From Natronosalvus halobius (GTDB lineage Archaea > Halobacteriota > Halobacteria > Halobacteriales > Natrialbaceae): a stretch of DNA of 64,000 nucleotides. The stretch spans positions 1,116,001 through 1,180,000 of the forward strand of contig NZ_CP099997.1 of the NCBI RefSeq assembly GCF_024138145.1, in the 5' to 3' direction. The notes beneath the pieces were generated by a model. The model was given only the letters and a program-made list of their open reading frames with translations, was not told the origin of the DNA and searched no databases. The position numbers and the translations under genes were made by a program. Below, in pieces: positions 4,484-13,333 of this stretch (position 1 is the first letter of the stretch; each line of letters begins with the position of its first letter).

Positions 4484-4885
4484 CTACTCGTCCTCAGACG
4501 TGGACTCCTCGAGCCAGCTGCCTGCCCAGCACTCGATTTCGTCGAAGACCGGCTCGAGCGACCGCCCCTTCGGGGTCAAACTGTAGTAGGTTGCGATCGG
4601 CGCGTCCTCCTCGATCCGCCGGTCGACGAACCCGAGTTCGCCCAGGTCCTCGAGCACCCGCGAGAGCGTCCTGGCGTTCGCGTCGGTCGCGCGCTTGAGT
4701 TCGTTGAAGCGGTACTCGCCCTTCTGGAGTTCGTGGAGGACGGCGAGTCGCCACTGGGAGCCGATCTGCTCGATCGAATCGATGACGGGGCAGGGCGAGT
4801 CCTCGGGTTCGGATCCGACGGCGACGTCGCCGTCAGTGGACGTATCAGCGCGCTCGACCTCGAGTGGAGTGGAGTCAGATGACAT
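4484..4885 (-). CDS. HxlR-family winged-helix transcription regulator
   Basis: A 133-residue DNA-binding regulator. The diagnostic start of the HxlR fold is present (a Cys-Pro in 'DSPCPVIDSIEQIGSQW', then RLAVLHELQKGEYRFNELKR). It is followed by the recognition helix ('NARTLSRVLEDLGELGFVDR') and the wing ending in 'ATYYSLTPKGRSLEPVFDEI'. The single Cys near residue 33 sits where redox-sensing members carry theirs. The gene is divergent from a flavin-reductase-like gene at 5125, the usual arrangement for HxlR regulators and their target. An 8-bp inverted repeat (4892-4899 and 4939-4946) flanks its likely TATA region, which suggests autoregulation (inference). Confidence 0.88.
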   Translation of the reverse strand: MSSDSTPLEVERADTSTDGDVAVGSEPEDSPCPVIDSIEQIGSQWRLAVLHELQKGEYRFNELKRATDANARTLSRVLEDLGELGFVDRRIEEDAPIATYYSLTPKGRSLEPVFDEIECWAGSWLEESTSEDE

Positions 4886-5821: not shown

Positions 5822-6370
5822 GTGAGCGACCGACGAGGCGAAGCTTCCGGCGAGACCTCGGCGGCTTCCGGGGAGACGGTCCCTCGAGCGGAGTCGTTGC
5901 CGCTCGTCGACGTCCTGGAGACGGTCGCCGTCGGCGCCGCGCCGCCGCTGGCGCTGGGGCTGTTCGCCCTGGTGGTGCCGTCCGTGCCAGTCGGCCAGGC
6001 GGTCTTCGTCGGCGTCCTGGTCGGCGCGATCCTCGCGTCGTACCGACGAGGGATCGAGGCCGTCCGAGCCGAAGACGGAGACGGGGACGGGATAACGCGT
6101 CGCCTCCGCGTGCCCGACGTCGACGACCCTCGGAGCGACGGATTCGCGCTACTCGCTCGCCTGGACGCTCGAGTCGATGGTACTGTCCTCGAGTGGGTCG
6201 TCGTCGGGGCCGTAGGAACGATCGGACTCGCTTCCGCCGTCGAACTCGCCACCGCCGGGTTTGACCGGGTTACTCCTCGAGTGCTCCTGTTCGGCCTGCT
6301 GTGTGGGTCGGCAGCCCTGTTCGCGGTCGTGGTGCGATTCGGTGCGCCGAATCGGCAGGGGCAGGGATAG
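5822..6370 (+). CDS. Uncharacterised membrane protein, four predicted helices
   Basis: A 182-residue protein starting with GTG at 5822. A polar N-terminus of about 35 residues is followed by two hydrophobic segments (around residues 37-55 and 60-78), a polar loop rich in Arg/Asp/Gly, and two more hydrophobic segments (around 121-140 and 149-168). Nothing catalytic is visible. It lies 154 bases before the ABC export genes on the same strand, so it may belong with them, but the gap leaves this open. I do not recognise the family. Confidence 0.6.
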   Translation: MSDRRGEASGETSAASGETVPRAESLPLVDVLETVAVGAAPPLALGLFALVVPSVPVGQAVFVGVLVGAILASYRRGIEAVRAEDGDGDGITRRLRVPDVDDPRSDGFALLARLDARVDGTVLEWVVVGAVGTIGLASAVELATAGFDRVTPRVLLFGLLCGSAALFAVVVRFGAPNRQGQG

Positions 6371-6524: not shown

Positions 6525-7436
6525 ATGATTGACGTTGCGGATCTACGCAAGGAGTACGGCAGTTTCGTCGCCGTCGAAGGCAGTTCGTTCTCGATCGATC
6601 GGGGCGAGGTGTTCGGCGTCGTCGGTCACAATGGCGCCGGCAAGACCACGACGCTGAAGATGCTCGCCGGACTGATCGAACCGACTGGCGGAACCGCAGT
6701 GGTGGCTGGACACCCCGCCGGTTCCTCGGCGATGCAGCGCCGTCTCGGCTTCCTCCCCGAGGAGTCACCGCTGTACGAGGAGATGACGCCCCTCTCCTAC
6801 CTCGAGTTCTTCGCCGACCTCTACGACGTTCCAGATGACGTGGCGAGCGAGCGCATCACCGCCCTCCTGGACCGCCTCGACCTCGAGCACCGTGATCGAG
6901 AACTGGGCAATATGTCGAAGGGGATGAAGCGCAAGGTCGCCATCGCACGCGCGCTGGTCAACGACCCCGACGTGCTCATCTTCGACGAACCCGCCTCCGG
7001 ACTCGATCCCCTGACGACGAACGCCATCCTGGAGTTTACGCGGGAACTCAGCGAGGAGGGGAAGACGGTCGTCTTCAGTGCACACAACCTCTTTCACGTC
7101 GAGAGCGTCTGTGATCGCCTCGTCATCATGGCCGAGGGCGAGATCGTCGCTCGCGGAAGCATCGAGGACATCCGCTCGACTTACGGTGGGACTAGTTACC
7201 ACGTCTTCGTCTCCACCGAGGGGGACGACGTGGTGGGAAGCGACGCGATCGCCGCCCCGGTAGCCGAGATCGGTCGCGAGAACGGGGATCTTCGATACGT
7301 GGTTCGAGACCTCGATGGCGTCGACGCCGTCCGCGACGCCGTGGAGGCGGCCGGCGGCTCCGTCACCGACATTCAGACGAAGACGCCGAGTCTCGAGGAA
7401 ATCTTTCTCGACGTGGCCGGGGAGGCGGCTGCGTGA
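6525..7436 (+). CDS. ABC-2 type transporter ATP-binding protein
   Basis: The ATPase of an ABC-2 (NatA/CcmA-like) export system. Walker A is GHNGAGKT at residues 34-41, the signature is the variant 'NMSKGMKRK' near residue 130 (SKGM rather than SGGQ, common in NatA-type proteins), and Walker B is 'VLIFDEPASGLDP' near 150. A C-terminal extension of about 80 residues ends 'TPSLEEIFLDVAG', as usual for this class. The stop overlaps the GTG start of the permease-protease gene by 4 bases, indicating translational coupling. It presumably drives the two permeases at 7433 and 9312. Confidence 0.93.
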   Translation: MIDVADLRKEYGSFVAVEGSSFSIDRGEVFGVVGHNGAGKTTTLKMLAGLIEPTGGTAVVAGHPAGSSAMQRRLGFLPEESPLYEEMTPLSYLEFFADLYDVPDDVASERITALLDRLDLEHRDRELGNMSKGMKRKVAIARALVNDPDVLIFDEPASGLDPLTTNAILEFTRELSEEGKTVVFSAHNLFHVESVCDRLVIMAEGEIVARGSIEDIRSTYGGTSYHVFVSTEGDDVVGSDAIAAPVAEIGRENGDLRYVVRDLDGVDAVRDAVEAAGGSVTDIQTKTPSLEEIFLDVAGEAAA

Positions 7437-9322
7437 CGGCTGGCCCCGACTCGAGTGACGCCCAGGCCGCCAACTCAGTTGATTCGACCGATTCGACGTC
7501 CAGAACGGACGCCGTTCGCGGCTTCGTCCGCCGAACCGCCCGAATCGCCCGCTGGGAAGTCTCCCGGAGCGCCGGCACGGTCGACCGGAAGACGATTCTG
7601 ATCGTCCTCGTGCTCGCCCTCGTCGTCGGTGCAGTGGGTTTCGCGACCGTGGACGAGGGTGTGGGTCTCGAGGACGGACTCTACACCGTAGCCGTCGACG
7701 AAGAGAGCCTGTACCACGCGGTCGCGGTCGAGAATCCGACGTTCACGACCGTCGAACCGGGCACCGACGCCGACGTGCACGTATACCGCGGCGACGTCAT
7801 CGATCCTGACAGGGCACGGACCTCGAAAGAGAGGGCCGCCTACGCCGCGTTTGCCGACGCCGTCGAGGCGCAGAACGAGGAGCGAATGTACGCGGAGAAC
7901 GATCGAAGCGCCGCGTTTCCCGTCTCCGTTATCCTGACCTACCAGCAGCGATCCGGCCCTGATTCGACGAGCGACAGGAGCGACAGGAGCGACTCGAGCG
8001 ATGGCGGATCGACCGGATCCGGTGCTGGTTCGACTGACGGCGGCGACGGAACGGGTGCCGACGGCTCGAGCGACGGTAACAGCGGTGCTCCCGCGGACTC
8101 GAGCGACGGATCTGGCTCGGGCATCAGCGTGCCGGAGTTCGGCGGCGGCTCGATCGAAGAGCCGAGCCAGCCACAGACACCGGGATCGATCACGCCGCCG
8201 TTTCCCTTCCGATCGCTCGTGCTCGCGTTCCTGTTCGTCGTCCCGATGAACGTCGTGATTCAGTCCTACGGGAGCACGATCATGGACGAGCGGATCAAGC
8301 GCCGCGGCGAACTGTTGCTGGTCTCGCCCGCCTCGCGATACGAGATCGTCGCCGGGAAGACGCTCCCGTACCTGCTGGCACTCCTTGGAATCGTCGTCGT
8401 AATCGCGCACGTGATCGAGGGGAGCTGGCTGTCGGTCGCCGCCGTCGTCCCCATCGCGCTCGCCTTCCTCGCGGCCACGTTCGTCGGGGCGATGTTCGCC
8501 CGCTCGTTCAAGGAACTCACGTTCGTCACGGTGACGGTTTCGGTGGTGCTGACGACCTACGCGTTCGTGCCGGCGATCTTCACGAACGTCACGCCGATCT
8601 CGCTCATCTCGCCGCTGACGCTCGTCGTCCTGGACCTCCAGGGTGAGAGCGTCCGCTTCGGTGAGTACCTCTTCTCGACGTCGCCGCTGACTCTCGGCGC
8701 GCTCGTCCTCTTCGGACTGGGTCTCGGGAGCTACCGAGAGGAGGACATGTTCACTCAGAAGCCGATCCCATCGAAGGCGGTCGACGCCGTCGCCGCGCAC
8801 GTCCGGGGGTACGCCAGCGTGCTCGTGATGCCGGTCGTCTTCATCCCGTTCGTTTTCGCCGGCCAGTTGCTCACCGTTGCGCTCGTCTTCGCGCTACCGC
8901 AGACGGTGTCGCTCCCGGTGGTCTTCGTCGTCGCCGCGCTCCTGGAGGAACTCGCGAAGAGCCTCCACGTCTACGCGGGCTACGCCCACTCGCGGTTCGA
9001 ATCGTCCGTCCGAACGGCGGTCGTCCTCGGCGCGCTCTCGGGATTGGGCTTCTTCCTGGGCGAAAAACTCACCCACGCCGCCCAGTTCGTCGGGCTTCCC
9101 GACCTGCTCGAGGGACAGGCCGCCTTCGGTCCGTCACTCTCTGGTGCCCCCGTTGCCGTGGTGGTCGCCGTCTTCCTCGCACCCCTGGCGTTGCACGTCG
9201 TGACGGCGATCATTGGGGCGATCGGTGCCAGCCGAGGCCGGACCGCGTACGCACTCGGCCTGACTGCTGCGACGCTCGTTCACGCGGTCTACAACCTCGG
9301 GGTGATCGCGCTTGTCGCGTGA
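7433..9322 (+). CDS. ABC-2 permease fused to a PrsW-type intramembrane protease
   Basis: A 629-residue membrane protein. Residues 1-440 are an ABC-2 permease half: one N-terminal helix, a large extracytoplasmic loop ending in a Ser/Gly/Asp-rich linker (about 180-235), then six or so helices with the 'ERIKRRGELLLVSPAS' coupling helix. Residues 450-629 are a separate polytopic domain with protease motifs: E505-E506-x2-K509 ('LLEELAK'), F540-x3-E544 ('FFLGEK'), H588 and H617-x3-N621. These fit the PrsW/CPBP glutamic-type intramembrane proteases. Starts GTG 4 bases inside the ATPase gene and overlaps the next permease by 11 bases. What is cleaved or exported is unknown. Confidence 0.82.
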   Translation: MTAGPDSSDAQAANSVDSTDSTSRTDAVRGFVRRTARIARWEVSRSAGTVDRKTILIVLVLALVVGAVGFATVDEGVGLEDGLYTVAVDEESLYHAVAVENPTFTTVEPGTDADVHVYRGDVIDPDRARTSKERAAYAAFADAVEAQNEERMYAENDRSAAFPVSVILTYQQRSGPDSTSDRSDRSDSSDGGSTGSGAGSTDGGDGTGADGSSDGNSGAPADSSDGSGSGISVPEFGGGSIEEPSQPQTPGSITPPFPFRSLVLAFLFVVPMNVVIQSYGSTIMDERIKRRGELLLVSPASRYEIVAGKTLPYLLALLGIVVVIAHVIEGSWLSVAAVVPIALAFLAATFVGAMFARSFKELTFVTVTVSVVLTTYAFVPAIFTNVTPISLISPLTLVVLDLQGESVRFGEYLFSTSPLTLGALVLFGLGLGSYREEDMFTQKPIPSKAVDAVAAHVRGYASVLVMPVVFIPFVFAGQLLTVALVFALPQTVSLPVVFVVAALLEELAKSLHVYAGYAHSRFESSVRTAVVLGALSGLGFFLGEKLTHAAQFVGLPDLLEGQAAFGPSLSGAPVAVVVAVFLAPLALHVVTAIIGAIGASRGRTAYALGLTAATLVHAVYNLGVIALVA

Positions 9323-10397
9323 GCTTCGGGCGGGTGAGGATGACTCGACCCTGCACGCCCGACTCGCCATCGTCCGCCGCGAGTGGCGCTCCCTGCGCTC
9401 TGAGAAGACCATCGTGCTCGCGCTGGCCATCCAGCTGGTCATCGCCGGCTTCTCGGGCTTCCTGGTCGTCGGCCTCGTCTCGCTGTACGACCCCGGCGCG
9501 GTCGAGGGCCAGGAGATGACTGTCGCGCTCACCGGCGACGACAGGGACGCGCTACTCGAGGCCGTCCACCATCGAGAGGCCATCGAACCGCGACTCTACG
9601 ACGACCGCGGGGCCGCTTACGCCGACTTCGACCGACGAGCCGTCGCCGCCGTCGTCGAAACCAACCGCCTGGACGACGGCCGGCTCGCGATCGTGGTCAC
9701 GGCACCCGACGAGGGGATCGGGACGACGCTGTTGATCTCGGAACTCCAGGAGACGTTCCGCACGGTGGAGTTCGAGGAACGGCAGGCGAACGCCGACCGC
9801 CTCGAGTCGCCACCCCTGTCCGTGCCCTCGACGAGCGCGACGCCGTACTTCGGGTTCACCTACACCATCCTGGTGCCGCTCCTGTTGTTCCTGCCGGTGT
9901 TCATCAGCGGCTCGATCGCCGTCGACTCGCTGATCGAGGAGCGCCAGCGTGGCACGTTAGAGTTGCTCCGGGTGGCGCCGCTGTCGTTCCCCGACGTGAT
10001 CGACGCGAAACTCGTCGCGACGGCCAGCCTGGCCCCGCTGCAGGGACTCGCCTGGCTCCTCTTGCTCGCGTTCAACGGGACGGCGATCGCCAACCCAGCG
10101 GCCTTGATCGTCTTCGTCGCCGCGTTGGCGTTACTCATCGTCGCCCTCGGTATGGGTGTGGCGCTGTACGCCCCGGACCGACGACAGGCACAGTTGCTCT
10201 ACTCGGCGGGCATCGTCGGCCTCCTGGTCGTCACGAGTTTGCTGCCGGAACATCCCGCGAACACGGTCGCGAAACTGGCCATCGGGAGCGAGACGACGAC
10301 GACCTGGCTCCTGTTCGCCGGCTACGTTGTGGCCGGTCTCGGGGCGTACCTGCTGCTCCAGTGGGGGCTCGAGCGGGTCGACCAGGCGGCCCTCTAA
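9312..10397 (+). CDS. ABC-2 type permease
   Basis: A 361-residue permease. One N-terminal helix (about residues 29-52) is followed by an extracytoplasmic domain of about 130 residues with acidic sequence, then six helices beginning at 'YTILVPLLLFLPVFISGS'. The loop 'LIEERQRGTLELLRVAPLS' is the typical coupling segment that contacts the ATPase. The start is a TTG at 9312, inside the end of the previous gene; no ATG or GTG fits. It is the second half of the export channel together with the fused permease-protease. Both permeases share the layout of NatB-like Na+/drug exporters, but the substrate is unknown. Confidence 0.88.
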   Translation: MSRELRAGEDDSTLHARLAIVRREWRSLRSEKTIVLALAIQLVIAGFSGFLVVGLVSLYDPGAVEGQEMTVALTGDDRDALLEAVHHREAIEPRLYDDRGAAYADFDRRAVAAVVETNRLDDGRLAIVVTAPDEGIGTTLLISELQETFRTVEFEERQANADRLESPPLSVPSTSATPYFGFTYTILVPLLLFLPVFISGSIAVDSLIEERQRGTLELLRVAPLSFPDVIDAKLVATASLAPLQGLAWLLLLAFNGTAIANPAALIVFVAALALLIVALGMGVALYAPDRRQAQLLYSAGIVGLLVVTSLLPEHPANTVAKLAIGSETTTTWLLFAGYVVAGLGAYLLLQWGLERVDQAAL

Positions 10398-10472
10398 GGG
10401 AAGCAGGCCGTGGTTAGCACGCCCAGCGTCTCTCCACCGCCGCGACCCGAGTAGTTATACGCCACCCCGCGA

Positions 10473-12971
10473 ATGTCACCGGCCGTGAACGAAGGAATGA
10501 CGCGACGGGGCGCGCTCGCCGTGGCCGTCCTCGCGGGCGTCGCCGGCCTCTCACTCTCGTCCGCGGGCGACCTCCTCGAGCAGTTCGCGCCGCTTTCGGG
10601 GTCCGCCTGGAACGCCGCCGACCGGGAACGCCCGGAACGCGTCGAGAGTCCCTACGGCGACGCGACCGTTCGAATCGACGACGAGGGCGTTCCCCACGTC
10701 GAGGCGAACGACGAGCGGGCGGCGTACTTCGCCGTCGGCCACCTCCACGGGTTCGACCGCGGCTTCCAGCTCGACCTCCAGCGTCGACAGATGCGAGGCG
10801 AACTGTCGGCCGTCGTCGGCGAGGCCACTCTCGAGAGCGACGAGTTCCACGTCCGGATGGACTTCGCTGGAGCCGCCGAGGCAACCTGGAACGCCCTCGA
10901 GGAGACCCACGCCGGGTCGCTCATCGAGGCCTACGCCGACGGCGTGAACGCGGCGCTCGAGGGCACGACGCTCCCGCTCGAGTTCGAACTGCTCGAGTTC
11001 GAGCCGGACCCGTGGGTGCCCGCCGACACGCTCTTGATGGAGAAACAGATCGCCTGGACGCTCACGGGGAACTTCAGCGCGCTTCGACGCCGGGTGCTCG
11101 AAAATCGGCTCGACCCGGCGATTCTCGAGGCGCTGTTCCCCGAGCGGATGGACCACGACACGCCAGTACTGCGAACTGGTCCGGAACACGTCGACGACCT
11201 GGGAGAGCTTCGAGGCGTCCGTACAGGCGAGGACGGTCCAGACGCCGGCGACGACGAACCCGGGACCGACCGCACCGCGGACGCCCGCGACTCGAGTACC
11301 CCCTCCCTGGCGACGTGGCTCTCGCGATTCGAGTCGCCGCCCGGCGTCGGCTCGAACAGCTGGCTGGTCTCGGGCGAGCACACCGAGAGCGGGACGCCCG
11401 TCGTCGCGAACGATCCGCACCTCCAGTTGATGACACCGCCGCTGTGGTACGAACAGCACGTCGAGACTCCGGAAGCCTCGGTTCGCGGGGTGACGTTCCC
11501 GGGCGTCCCCTTCGTCATCATCGGTGCCAATGAGGCCGCCGGTTGGGGCTTCACGAACGTCGGCGCGGACGTCCTGGACTGTTACACCTACGAGATAGAC
11601 GACGAGAACGAGCGCTACCGGTATCGGGGCGAGTGGCGAGAGTTTGAGACCGAGGAGCGCGAAATCGCCGTCTCCGGCGGCGAGAATCGGTCGATCACCG
11701 TCAGAAAGACCGTCCATGGCCCCCTGCTCGAACGCGAGGGCGAGACGGTCGGCGTCGCCTGGACCGGACTCAGCGCGACACGGACGACCGAGGCCGTCTA
11801 CGACCTGACGGTCAGCGAGGGCGTCGACGACGCGCTCGAGGCCGCCAGCCGGTTCGATGTGCCGACACAGAACCTCGTGTACGCGGACGCGGACGGACGG
11901 ACGCTGTACGTCGCCGTCGGCCAGTTGCCGATCCGTCGGGAGGGCGACGGCTCGAGCGGCGAACCGATCGCTGGAAATCGCGTTTTCGACGGTTCCGCGG
12001 GCAAAGGCGAGTGGGAAGGCTACGAGCCCTACGACGTCTCCGATTGGGAAGCCGACGGGTTCGTCCCCTTCGAGGAACAGCCCGCGGCGATCGATCCCGA
12101 CCTGCTGGCGACGGCGAATCAGCGGACCGCGGACGACCCCGAGCATTACCTCGGTACCGCCTTCGCGATGCCTTATCGTGGTAGACGAATCTACGACGTG
12201 CTCGATGCCGCGGCCGACGAGGGCCTGGCAACCGACGTCGCCTACCATCGCGACCTCCAGACCGACCGTCGCGACGAGCGCGCCGTCGACACGGTTCCCG
12301 ACTTGCTCGACATCGGAACCGCGGCACTCGAGGACGGGACGGTCGACGATCTCAACCAATTCGAGGACGCCCTCGAAACGCTCGAGGACTGGGGTCCGGA
12401 GTACGAGATGGTGCGCGACTCCCGCGGGGCCCTGCTGTTCGCCCGCTGGTTCGAGCACCTCCGGGAGGGTGTCCTCGAGCCGATCTTCGACCCCGCCGAC
12501 CTCGGTTCCGAGTACTACCCGAACGACTGGATCGTCGCGACGCTGCCCGCCGAGAGCCCAGTCTTCGAGGGCCGCTCGCGGGAGGTGATTCTCGTCGAGG
12601 CGCTCGAGACGACCCTCGAGGAACTCGAGGCCGAAGGGTGGGATACCTACGGCGACTGGAATACCACCGGGCCCATCGGGCACCCCTTTGGCAGCGAGGC
12701 GCCGTTTCTCAGTTACGACGAGCGACCGACCGACGGGTCCCGGGCGACGGTCGACAACTACCGCGTCGAGAGTGCCGTCGGCGCCAGCTGGCGGATGGTG
12801 GTCGAACCCGGTGACGAAGCCTGGGCAATCCTCCCCGGTGGGAACTCGGGCGACTACTTCTCGGCCCACTACGACGACCAGTTCGGGCGGTGGGCCGACG
12901 GCGAGTACAAGCCGATGGACCTCGAGGCCGCCGGCGAGACGGCGACGCGGTTCGAGGGGGTGGAGCGATGA
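10473..12971 (+). CDS. Penicillin-acylase-family Ntn hydrolase
   Basis: An 832-residue amidohydrolase of the penicillin amidase/acyl-homoserine-lactone acylase superfamily. It is made as a precursor that cleaves itself: the alpha-chain region ends before Gly293 and the new N-terminal nucleophile is Ser294 in 'PGVGSNSWLVSG'. The oxyanion/binding segment 'NDPHLQL' and the 'GWGFTNVGADV' motif follow as expected. The N-terminus has a hydrophobic stretch after 'TRRGALAVAVLAG', a possible Tat or anchor signal, so it probably works outside the cell or at the membrane. The substrate is unknown. The stop overlaps the next small membrane gene by 4 bases. Confidence 0.88.
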   Translation: MSPAVNEGMTRRGALAVAVLAGVAGLSLSSAGDLLEQFAPLSGSAWNAADRERPERVESPYGDATVRIDDEGVPHVEANDERAAYFAVGHLHGFDRGFQLDLQRRQMRGELSAVVGEATLESDEFHVRMDFAGAAEATWNALEETHAGSLIEAYADGVNAALEGTTLPLEFELLEFEPDPWVPADTLLMEKQIAWTLTGNFSALRRRVLENRLDPAILEALFPERMDHDTPVLRTGPEHVDDLGELRGVRTGEDGPDAGDDEPGTDRTADARDSSTPSLATWLSRFESPPGVGSNSWLVSGEHTESGTPVVANDPHLQLMTPPLWYEQHVETPEASVRGVTFPGVPFVIIGANEAAGWGFTNVGADVLDCYTYEIDDENERYRYRGEWREFETEEREIAVSGGENRSITVRKTVHGPLLEREGETVGVAWTGLSATRTTEAVYDLTVSEGVDDALEAASRFDVPTQNLVYADADGRTLYVAVGQLPIRREGDGSSGEPIAGNRVFDGSAGKGEWEGYEPYDVSDWEADGFVPFEEQPAAIDPDLLATANQRTADDPEHYLGTAFAMPYRGRRIYDVLDAAADEGLATDVAYHRDLQTDRRDERAVDTVPDLLDIGTAALEDGTVDDLNQFEDALETLEDWGPEYEMVRDSRGALLFARWFEHLREGVLEPIFDPADLGSEYYPNDWIVATLPAESPVFEGRSREVILVEALETTLEELEAEGWDTYGDWNTTGPIGHPFGSEAPFLSYDERPTDGSRATVDNYRVESAVGASWRMVVEPGDEAWAILPGGNSGDYFSAHYDDQFGRWADGEYKPMDLEAAGETATRFEGVER

Positions 12972-13333
12972 CGGCTTCGGAGAGTAGAGACGAGACGGCG
13001 ACGACGGTCCGACCGACGTTGGCTCGAGTTCGAACCGAACGCTCGATTCACCTCCTCGCCCTGCTCCTCGCCGTCGGCCTCGGTCTCGTCCTCTCGTGGT
13101 TCCACTGGATCGGCCTCGTCGCCGGGGGCGTTCTCGTCGGCCTCGTCGCACGGAGCCTCCTGCGAGCGCTCGGCTACGGCCTCGGATTCGGCCTCGTCGT
13201 GCTCGTCGTCTTCGCGTTCGTGCTCGGTAGTGGTCGAGGCCCGGCACTCGAGATGGCGCCCGCCATCTACCTCACCGTCGGTGCGGCACTCGGACTCCCC
13301 ATACTTGGGTCGCTGGCTCGCGGCATCGTCTGA
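12968..13333 (+). CDS. Small membrane protein coupled to the acylase gene
   Basis: A 121-residue protein whose ATG at 12968 overlaps the acylase stop (ATGA). A charged N-terminus of about 27 residues leads into hydrophobic segments around residues 28-45, 47-62 and 70-90, plus a last segment near the C-terminus. There are no catalytic motifs and I do not recognise the family. The tight coupling suggests that it is made in step with the acylase, perhaps as a membrane partner (inference). Confidence 0.68.
   Translation: MTASESRDETATTVRPTLARVRTERSIHLLALLLAVGLGLVLSWFHWIGLVAGGVLVGLVARSLLRALGYGLGFGLVVLVVFAFVLGSGRGPALEMAPAIYLTVGAALGLPILGSLARGIV

Follow-up and report, generated by a model that had tools for sequence, protein, structure and literature searches.

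A putative PrsW-type intramembrane protease fused to an ABC-2 permease in a three-gene module of Archaea

PrsW is a regulatory site-1 protease that acts on RsiW in B. subtilis. In archaea, a review of the membrane proteases of H. volcanii gives HVO_0408 as the sole PrsW-like entry (PMC9263693). Precedents for pairing an intramembrane protease with an ABC transporter come from bacteria. In S. aureus, release of lipoprotein-leader peptides needs both Eep and the ABC transporter EcsAB, with Eep making the peptides and EcsAB exporting them (PMC7157817). Loss of EcsAB also inhibits cleavage by RasP, and removal of peptides from the membrane ("membrane cleaning") has been proposed as the function involved (PMC2996298). 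During TMcin synthesis, cleavage is carried out by the S2P-clan protease TmcP; the proposed role of the type V exporter TmcBC is to extract and secrete the transmembrane peptide (PMC13252029). Taken as analogies, these precedents for coupling consist of two separate proteins, and their proteases are S2P-type metalloproteases rather than PrsW.

The locus described here carries an ABC-2 permease and a putative PrsW-type protease in one polypeptide. It lies in a window of 64,000 nucleotides of Natronosalvus halobius DNA (contig NZ_CP099997.1), where its genes and their parts are placed as follows.

6525..7436, forward strand: ABC transporter ATPase, DrrA/NatA-like, 303 aa (PF00005, 105.9 bits; PF13732, 37.8 bits)
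7433..9322, forward strand: fusion of an ABC-2 permease with a putative C-terminal PrsW-type intramembrane protease, a 629-aa ORF with a GTG start (orthologues; AlphaFold2 model)
7586..8731, forward strand: ABC-2 permease part of the fusion, residues 52-433 (PF12698, 17.7 bits; model helices; positive-inside loops)
8735..9319, forward strand: putative PrsW-type protease part of the fusion, residues 435-629, comprising the REED cytosolic linker and TM7-TM11 (PF13367 match; separate model)
9312..10397, forward strand: second ABC-2 permease, 361 aa, lacking a protease domain (PF12698, 57.8 bits)

A permease and a putative protease in one chain

The fusion ORF shares a few bases with each of its neighbours, at one end with the ATPase (6525-7436) and at the other with the second permease (9312-10397). 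In the AlphaFold2 model of the full protein (mean pLDDT 80.4), the permease part begins with TM1, continues into an ectodomain (residues 76-258) that includes a Ser/Asp/Gly-rich low-complexity linker, and ends with TM2-TM6. Positive charge falls on alternate loops, which fits a 6-TM permease followed by five protease TMs with buried catalytic residues. The permease part scores under the PF12698 cut-off of 31.6 bits in the whole-protein Pfam scan. The features of a type V (ABC-2) exporter are nonetheless all present: a 6-TM permease, a coupling segment (ER..RRGELLLVSP, residues 286-301) that is strongly conserved among orthologues, and a cognate ATPase with intact Walker A (GHNGAGKTT), signature (MSKG) and Walker B (VLIFDEP) motifs. 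Foldseek searches of the full model against the PDB returned only insignificant matches, to ABC-2 proteins such as ABCG5/8 and NosFY, and neither single-sequence nor profile searches recovered a PDB relative by sequence.

The protease half was assigned by searching the C-terminus separately. Residues 435-629 alone match the PrsW-protease family PF13367 (E = 1.3e-7; 31.8 bits, above the cut-off of 23.5), a PF13367 search of the whole genome also recovers the fusion protein, and half of 44 orthologous C-termini match the family individually (best E = 9e-10). Whole-protein Pfam and NCBIfam scans of the fusion report no PF13367 match, whereas the C-terminus alone passes the cut-off, so fused proteases like 7433-9322 can escape annotation pipelines. 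The CPBP family PF02517 gave no match to the fusion at E up to 1 or to the 44 orthologous C-termini at E up to 0.1, and NCBIfam searches of those C-termini yielded noise only. In the separate AlphaFold2 model of the protease part (mean pLDDT 89.5, pTM 0.85), as in the model of the full protein, every protease motif sits in its own long helix; Foldseek found no significant PDB match to the C-terminal model.

The genome also encodes one strong standalone PrsW (146 bits; L001:1174-2208, near 2206934 of G000:C1), which is perhaps the counterpart of HVO_0408. It is the only other PF13367 protein of the genome. When the fusion C-terminus is aligned with it by hhalign (E = 1.1e-5), four motifs fall in register, pairing EELAKS with EEAVKL, GFFLGEK with GFAAIEN, the H588 helix with GHVIYSA, and HAVYN with HATYN. 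Judged from profiles and alignment, the last ~170 residues of the fusion are a PrsW-type protease domain and not a CPBP domain. The first-pass annotation had read the protein as an ABC-2 permease fused to a PrsW/CPBP-type protease, beside an ATPase and a second permease, and had called for a profile search of the C-terminal residues. That search supports the fusion and, with the PF13367 score above its cut-off, the PrsW half of the family claim, while the CPBP half falls away with the lack of any PF02517 match. The eight residues it named (E505, E506, K509, F540, E544, H588, H617 and N621) are all present at the positions given, and they group into four motifs, listed here with their conservation among 116 homologues drawn from haloarchaea and other sampled lineages of the phylum.

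8945..8959, forward strand: catalytic motif 1, E505-E506-x2-K509, invariant in 116/116
9050..9064, forward strand: catalytic motif 2, F540-x3-E544, with E in 116/116 and F in 115/116
9194..9196, forward strand: catalytic motif 3, H588, invariant in 116/116
9281..9295, forward strand: catalytic motif 4, H617-x2-Y620-N621, with H in 116/116 and N in 111 (D in 5)

Pairwise identity in the protease part is as low as 17%, and the invariance of the catalytic residues despite this divergence suggests that catalysis itself is selected. This conservation of the motifs goes beyond chance, and its pattern is the one that selection on a catalytic site leaves.

The three-gene module and its distribution

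The fusion is accompanied almost everywhere by the same two genes. In 114 of 115 loci it is adjoined, in the same orientation, by the second permease, likely its heterodimer partner; the ATPase adjoins it in 108 of the 115, with none found nearby in six. Of the 80 haloarchaeal loci, 79 have the ATPase next to the fusion and in the same orientation. This co-directional arrangement is shared by one other genome (L131, G318), whereas in 28 loci of other classes (within L097-L130) the ATPase is divergently transcribed from the fusion; the change in orientation is an operon rearrangement, perhaps near the base of the haloarchaea. Pairwise distances of the ATPase, the second permease, the permease half and the protease half correlate at r = 0.92-0.95 (0.75-0.87 within haloarchaea), values that are uncorrected for shared ancestry. 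As a pattern in sequence distances, this correlated divergence shows vertical co-inheritance, not physical contact. When neighbourhoods were compared using filtered ORFs, no additional gene proved to be conserved alongside the module in different lineages, and among the adjacent ORFs of at least 70 aa there was no conserved precursor gene.

In the window, the three genes are followed by two others.

10473..12971, forward strand: penicillin-acylase-type enzyme, a local neighbour (PF01804, 617.8 bits)
12965..13333, forward strand: small TctB-like membrane protein, a local neighbour (PF07331, 19.4 bits, below cut-off)

Of 79 haloarchaeal loci, seven, all from Natrialbaceae, have the acylase next to the module, as do none of the 20 loci scanned from other classes; the TctB-like protein travels with it, again in few haloarchaeal loci and only in Natrialbaceae. 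The first-pass annotation had proposed a survey of the five genes at 6525-13333 as a cluster in which the acylase might take part. Its three-gene core was recovered at nearly every locus, but the acylase drops out as a part of the system, its link to the module being incidental. The five-gene cluster was rejected as a unit in favour of three core genes and two local ones.

Upstream of the module, the window holds a small HxlR-type-looking regulator (4484-4885, reverse strand); in 40 haloarchaeal loci its relatives are found close to the module but separated from it by other genes. For a small membrane protein encoded upstream of the ATPase (5822-6370, forward strand), blastp at 1e-5 detected no homologue in the fetched haloarchaeal loci. 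Outside Halobacteria, two genomes belonging to a single family, probably Methanosarcinaceae, have next to the permease, on the same strand, a gene for a membrane-anchored surface protein with Ig-like domains of the BatD/DUF11 and CARDB/TRAP-beta types (L097:9294-11108 and L098:3500-5332), which might be a substrate of the module or a partner to it.

The fusion itself is widespread. A scan of one genome per species gave 181 relatives, and the best 80 of these 181 loci, all haloarchaeal, were fetched. The C-terminal profile matches 223 of 292 Halobacteria genomes, about 211 of them strongly; the remaining ~12 matches are weak (E > 1e-10) and are probably standalone PrsW proteins. In a sample of 197 genomes from the whole phylum, the full-length profile matches 98. 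Of these, 73 do not belong to the Halobacteria sample, and they include lineages that we take to be methanogen-type from the known make-up of the phylum. The protease half is joined to the permease half in every one of the 116 homologues, with no case of fission, and the fusion occurs in the genus Haloferax. Halorussus salinisoli carries, besides a complete module (L024), a second copy of the fusion that lacks ATPase and permease neighbours and has intact protease motifs (L028). A plasmid search found the fusion on one haloarchaeal plasmid only.

The module is lacking in about 28% of Halobacteria and in half of the sampled phylum, which indicates that its task is not universal. Comparison of its profile with that of archaeosortase A (ArtA) is uninformative, since ArtA is near-universal, occurring in 192 of the 197 genomes against 98 for the fusion. 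The fusion module is ancient, real and under-annotated.

Cutting, export and the alternatives

Conservation of the pairing from haloarchaea to presumed methanogens suggests that cutting and export of the resulting piece take place in one machine. From the fused domains and their motifs we infer a type V (ABC-2) export complex that would comprise two ATPase subunits, the plain permease and the permease carrying an active PrsW-type glutamic protease. The protease would cut a membrane-anchored substrate within the bilayer; what is left of a signal peptide, the leader of a lipoprotein and the anchor of a surface protein are all candidates. The attached ABC motor would then take the cleavage product as its cargo, extracting this hydrophobic fragment from the bilayer and exporting it, which may keep the protease unclogged, free the fragment, or both. 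Such a mechanism is plausible. By analogy, the chances seem evenly balanced that the fusion is a one-piece version of Eep/RasP with EcsAB and of TmcP with TmcBC, in which cutting is followed by ABC extraction. More tentatively, the module may be an ancient archaeal unit in which PrsW-type proteolysis inside the bilayer feeds the freed TM peptide directly into ATP-driven type V extraction, by which members of this archaeal phylum would generally clear membrane peptides or secrete them.

The main rival to export-coupled proteolysis is a signalling device, in which the permease would sense or bind a ligand through its large ectodomain and the ATP cycle would switch on the fused protease for site-1 cleavage of a membrane-bound regulator, with little being transported. 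An ectodomain of about 180 residues would suit this role, and other PrsW domains are fused to the signalling domains PilZ, cNMP-binding and FHA (PMC3482391). However, the ATPase motifs and the coupling segment are intact, and the strong conservation of the latter is that of a functioning transporter. Nor is any regulator or anti-regulator conserved next to the module from one lineage to another, so that we regard signalling as unlikely, though worth serious consideration.

Two further readings, both improbable, divide the protein differently. In one, an active protease is merely tethered to an unrelated exporter, for instance of lipids or ions, and the fusion serves only expression or stoichiometry. 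The ABC-2 family does include drug, lipid and ion exporters, but a fusion that is never split in 116 proteins across the phylum, and whose parts diverge in step, argues against simple tethering. In the other, the PrsW domain has no catalytic role and serves the transporter as a scaffold or gate, like APH-1 in gamma-secretase. The closest structural neighbour that could be recognised for the C-terminal model is indeed APH-1, although it appears among the noise (TM 0.38-0.43, E 2.8-3.8). Pseudo-enzymes usually lose some of their catalytic residues, whereas the catalytic-type residues here are all invariant (116/116). Less credible again is the earlier idea of a lipopeptide or amide exporter, read here as a system in which a small molecule would be exported, the acylase would trim it and the protease would remove a leader peptide: a penicillin-acylase gene does lie downstream of the operon in the window, as it does in seven further Natrialbaceae loci, but 72 of 79 haloarchaeal and 20 of 20 scanned other-class loci have none next to the module, and no biosynthetic genes were seen nearby.

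For export-coupled proteolysis, the preferred reading, the natural fusion in Haloferax, where genetics is routine, makes the link between protease and exporter testable by single-residue mutants. It also bears on a puzzle posed by separate proteins in bacteria, namely how the cleaved TM products of intramembrane proteases are disposed of and why EcsAB-like exporters are needed.

Comparison with known systems

We found no study of this ABC-2/PrsW fusion in the open-licence literature. Published lists of archaeal membrane proteases seem not to include it, since whole-protein scans overlook its protease half and an orthologue is annotated as a permease; the RefSeq label of that orthologue, WP_227356692.1, is only "ABC transporter permease subunit".

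Members of the PrsW family (PF13367), such as PrsW of B. subtilis and HVO_0408 of H. volcanii, share with the fusion the EExxK, FxxxE, H and HxxYN motifs in separate TM helices. They have about eight TMs, however, whereas the fusion has five predicted TMs after its linker, joined to an ABC-2 permease and encoded beside an ATPase and a second permease. EcsAB with RasP or Eep, and PptAB with Eep, in Firmicutes likewise comprise an ABC exporter that works with an intramembrane protease on peptides (PMC7157817, PMC2996298), but these are separate proteins with an S2P-type metalloprotease and a single permease gene, and the EcsB family PF05975 gave no match to the fusion at E up to 1. TmcP with TmcBC resembles the proposed mechanism in its order of events, an intramembrane cut followed by type V ABC extraction of a transmembrane peptide (PMC13252029), and differs in its separate proteins, its S2P-clan protease and its dedicated peptide gene cluster. 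PCAT-type exporters (cited in PMC13252029) do place peptidase and exporter in one polypeptide, but theirs is a cytosolic C39 cysteine peptidase on a type IV exporter, and the folds are unrelated.

The nearest model by name is NF041647, an ABC permease/CPBP fusion, which likewise joins a permease to a glutamic-type intramembrane protease in a single polypeptide. It gave no match to the fusion at E up to 1 (cut-off 435 bits), and the second permease matches its permease part at 24.5 bits against that cut-off; the protease here is of the putative PrsW type, not CPBP. Both halves of the protein are of known kinds, and their fusion here differs from the modelled ABC/CPBP fusion.
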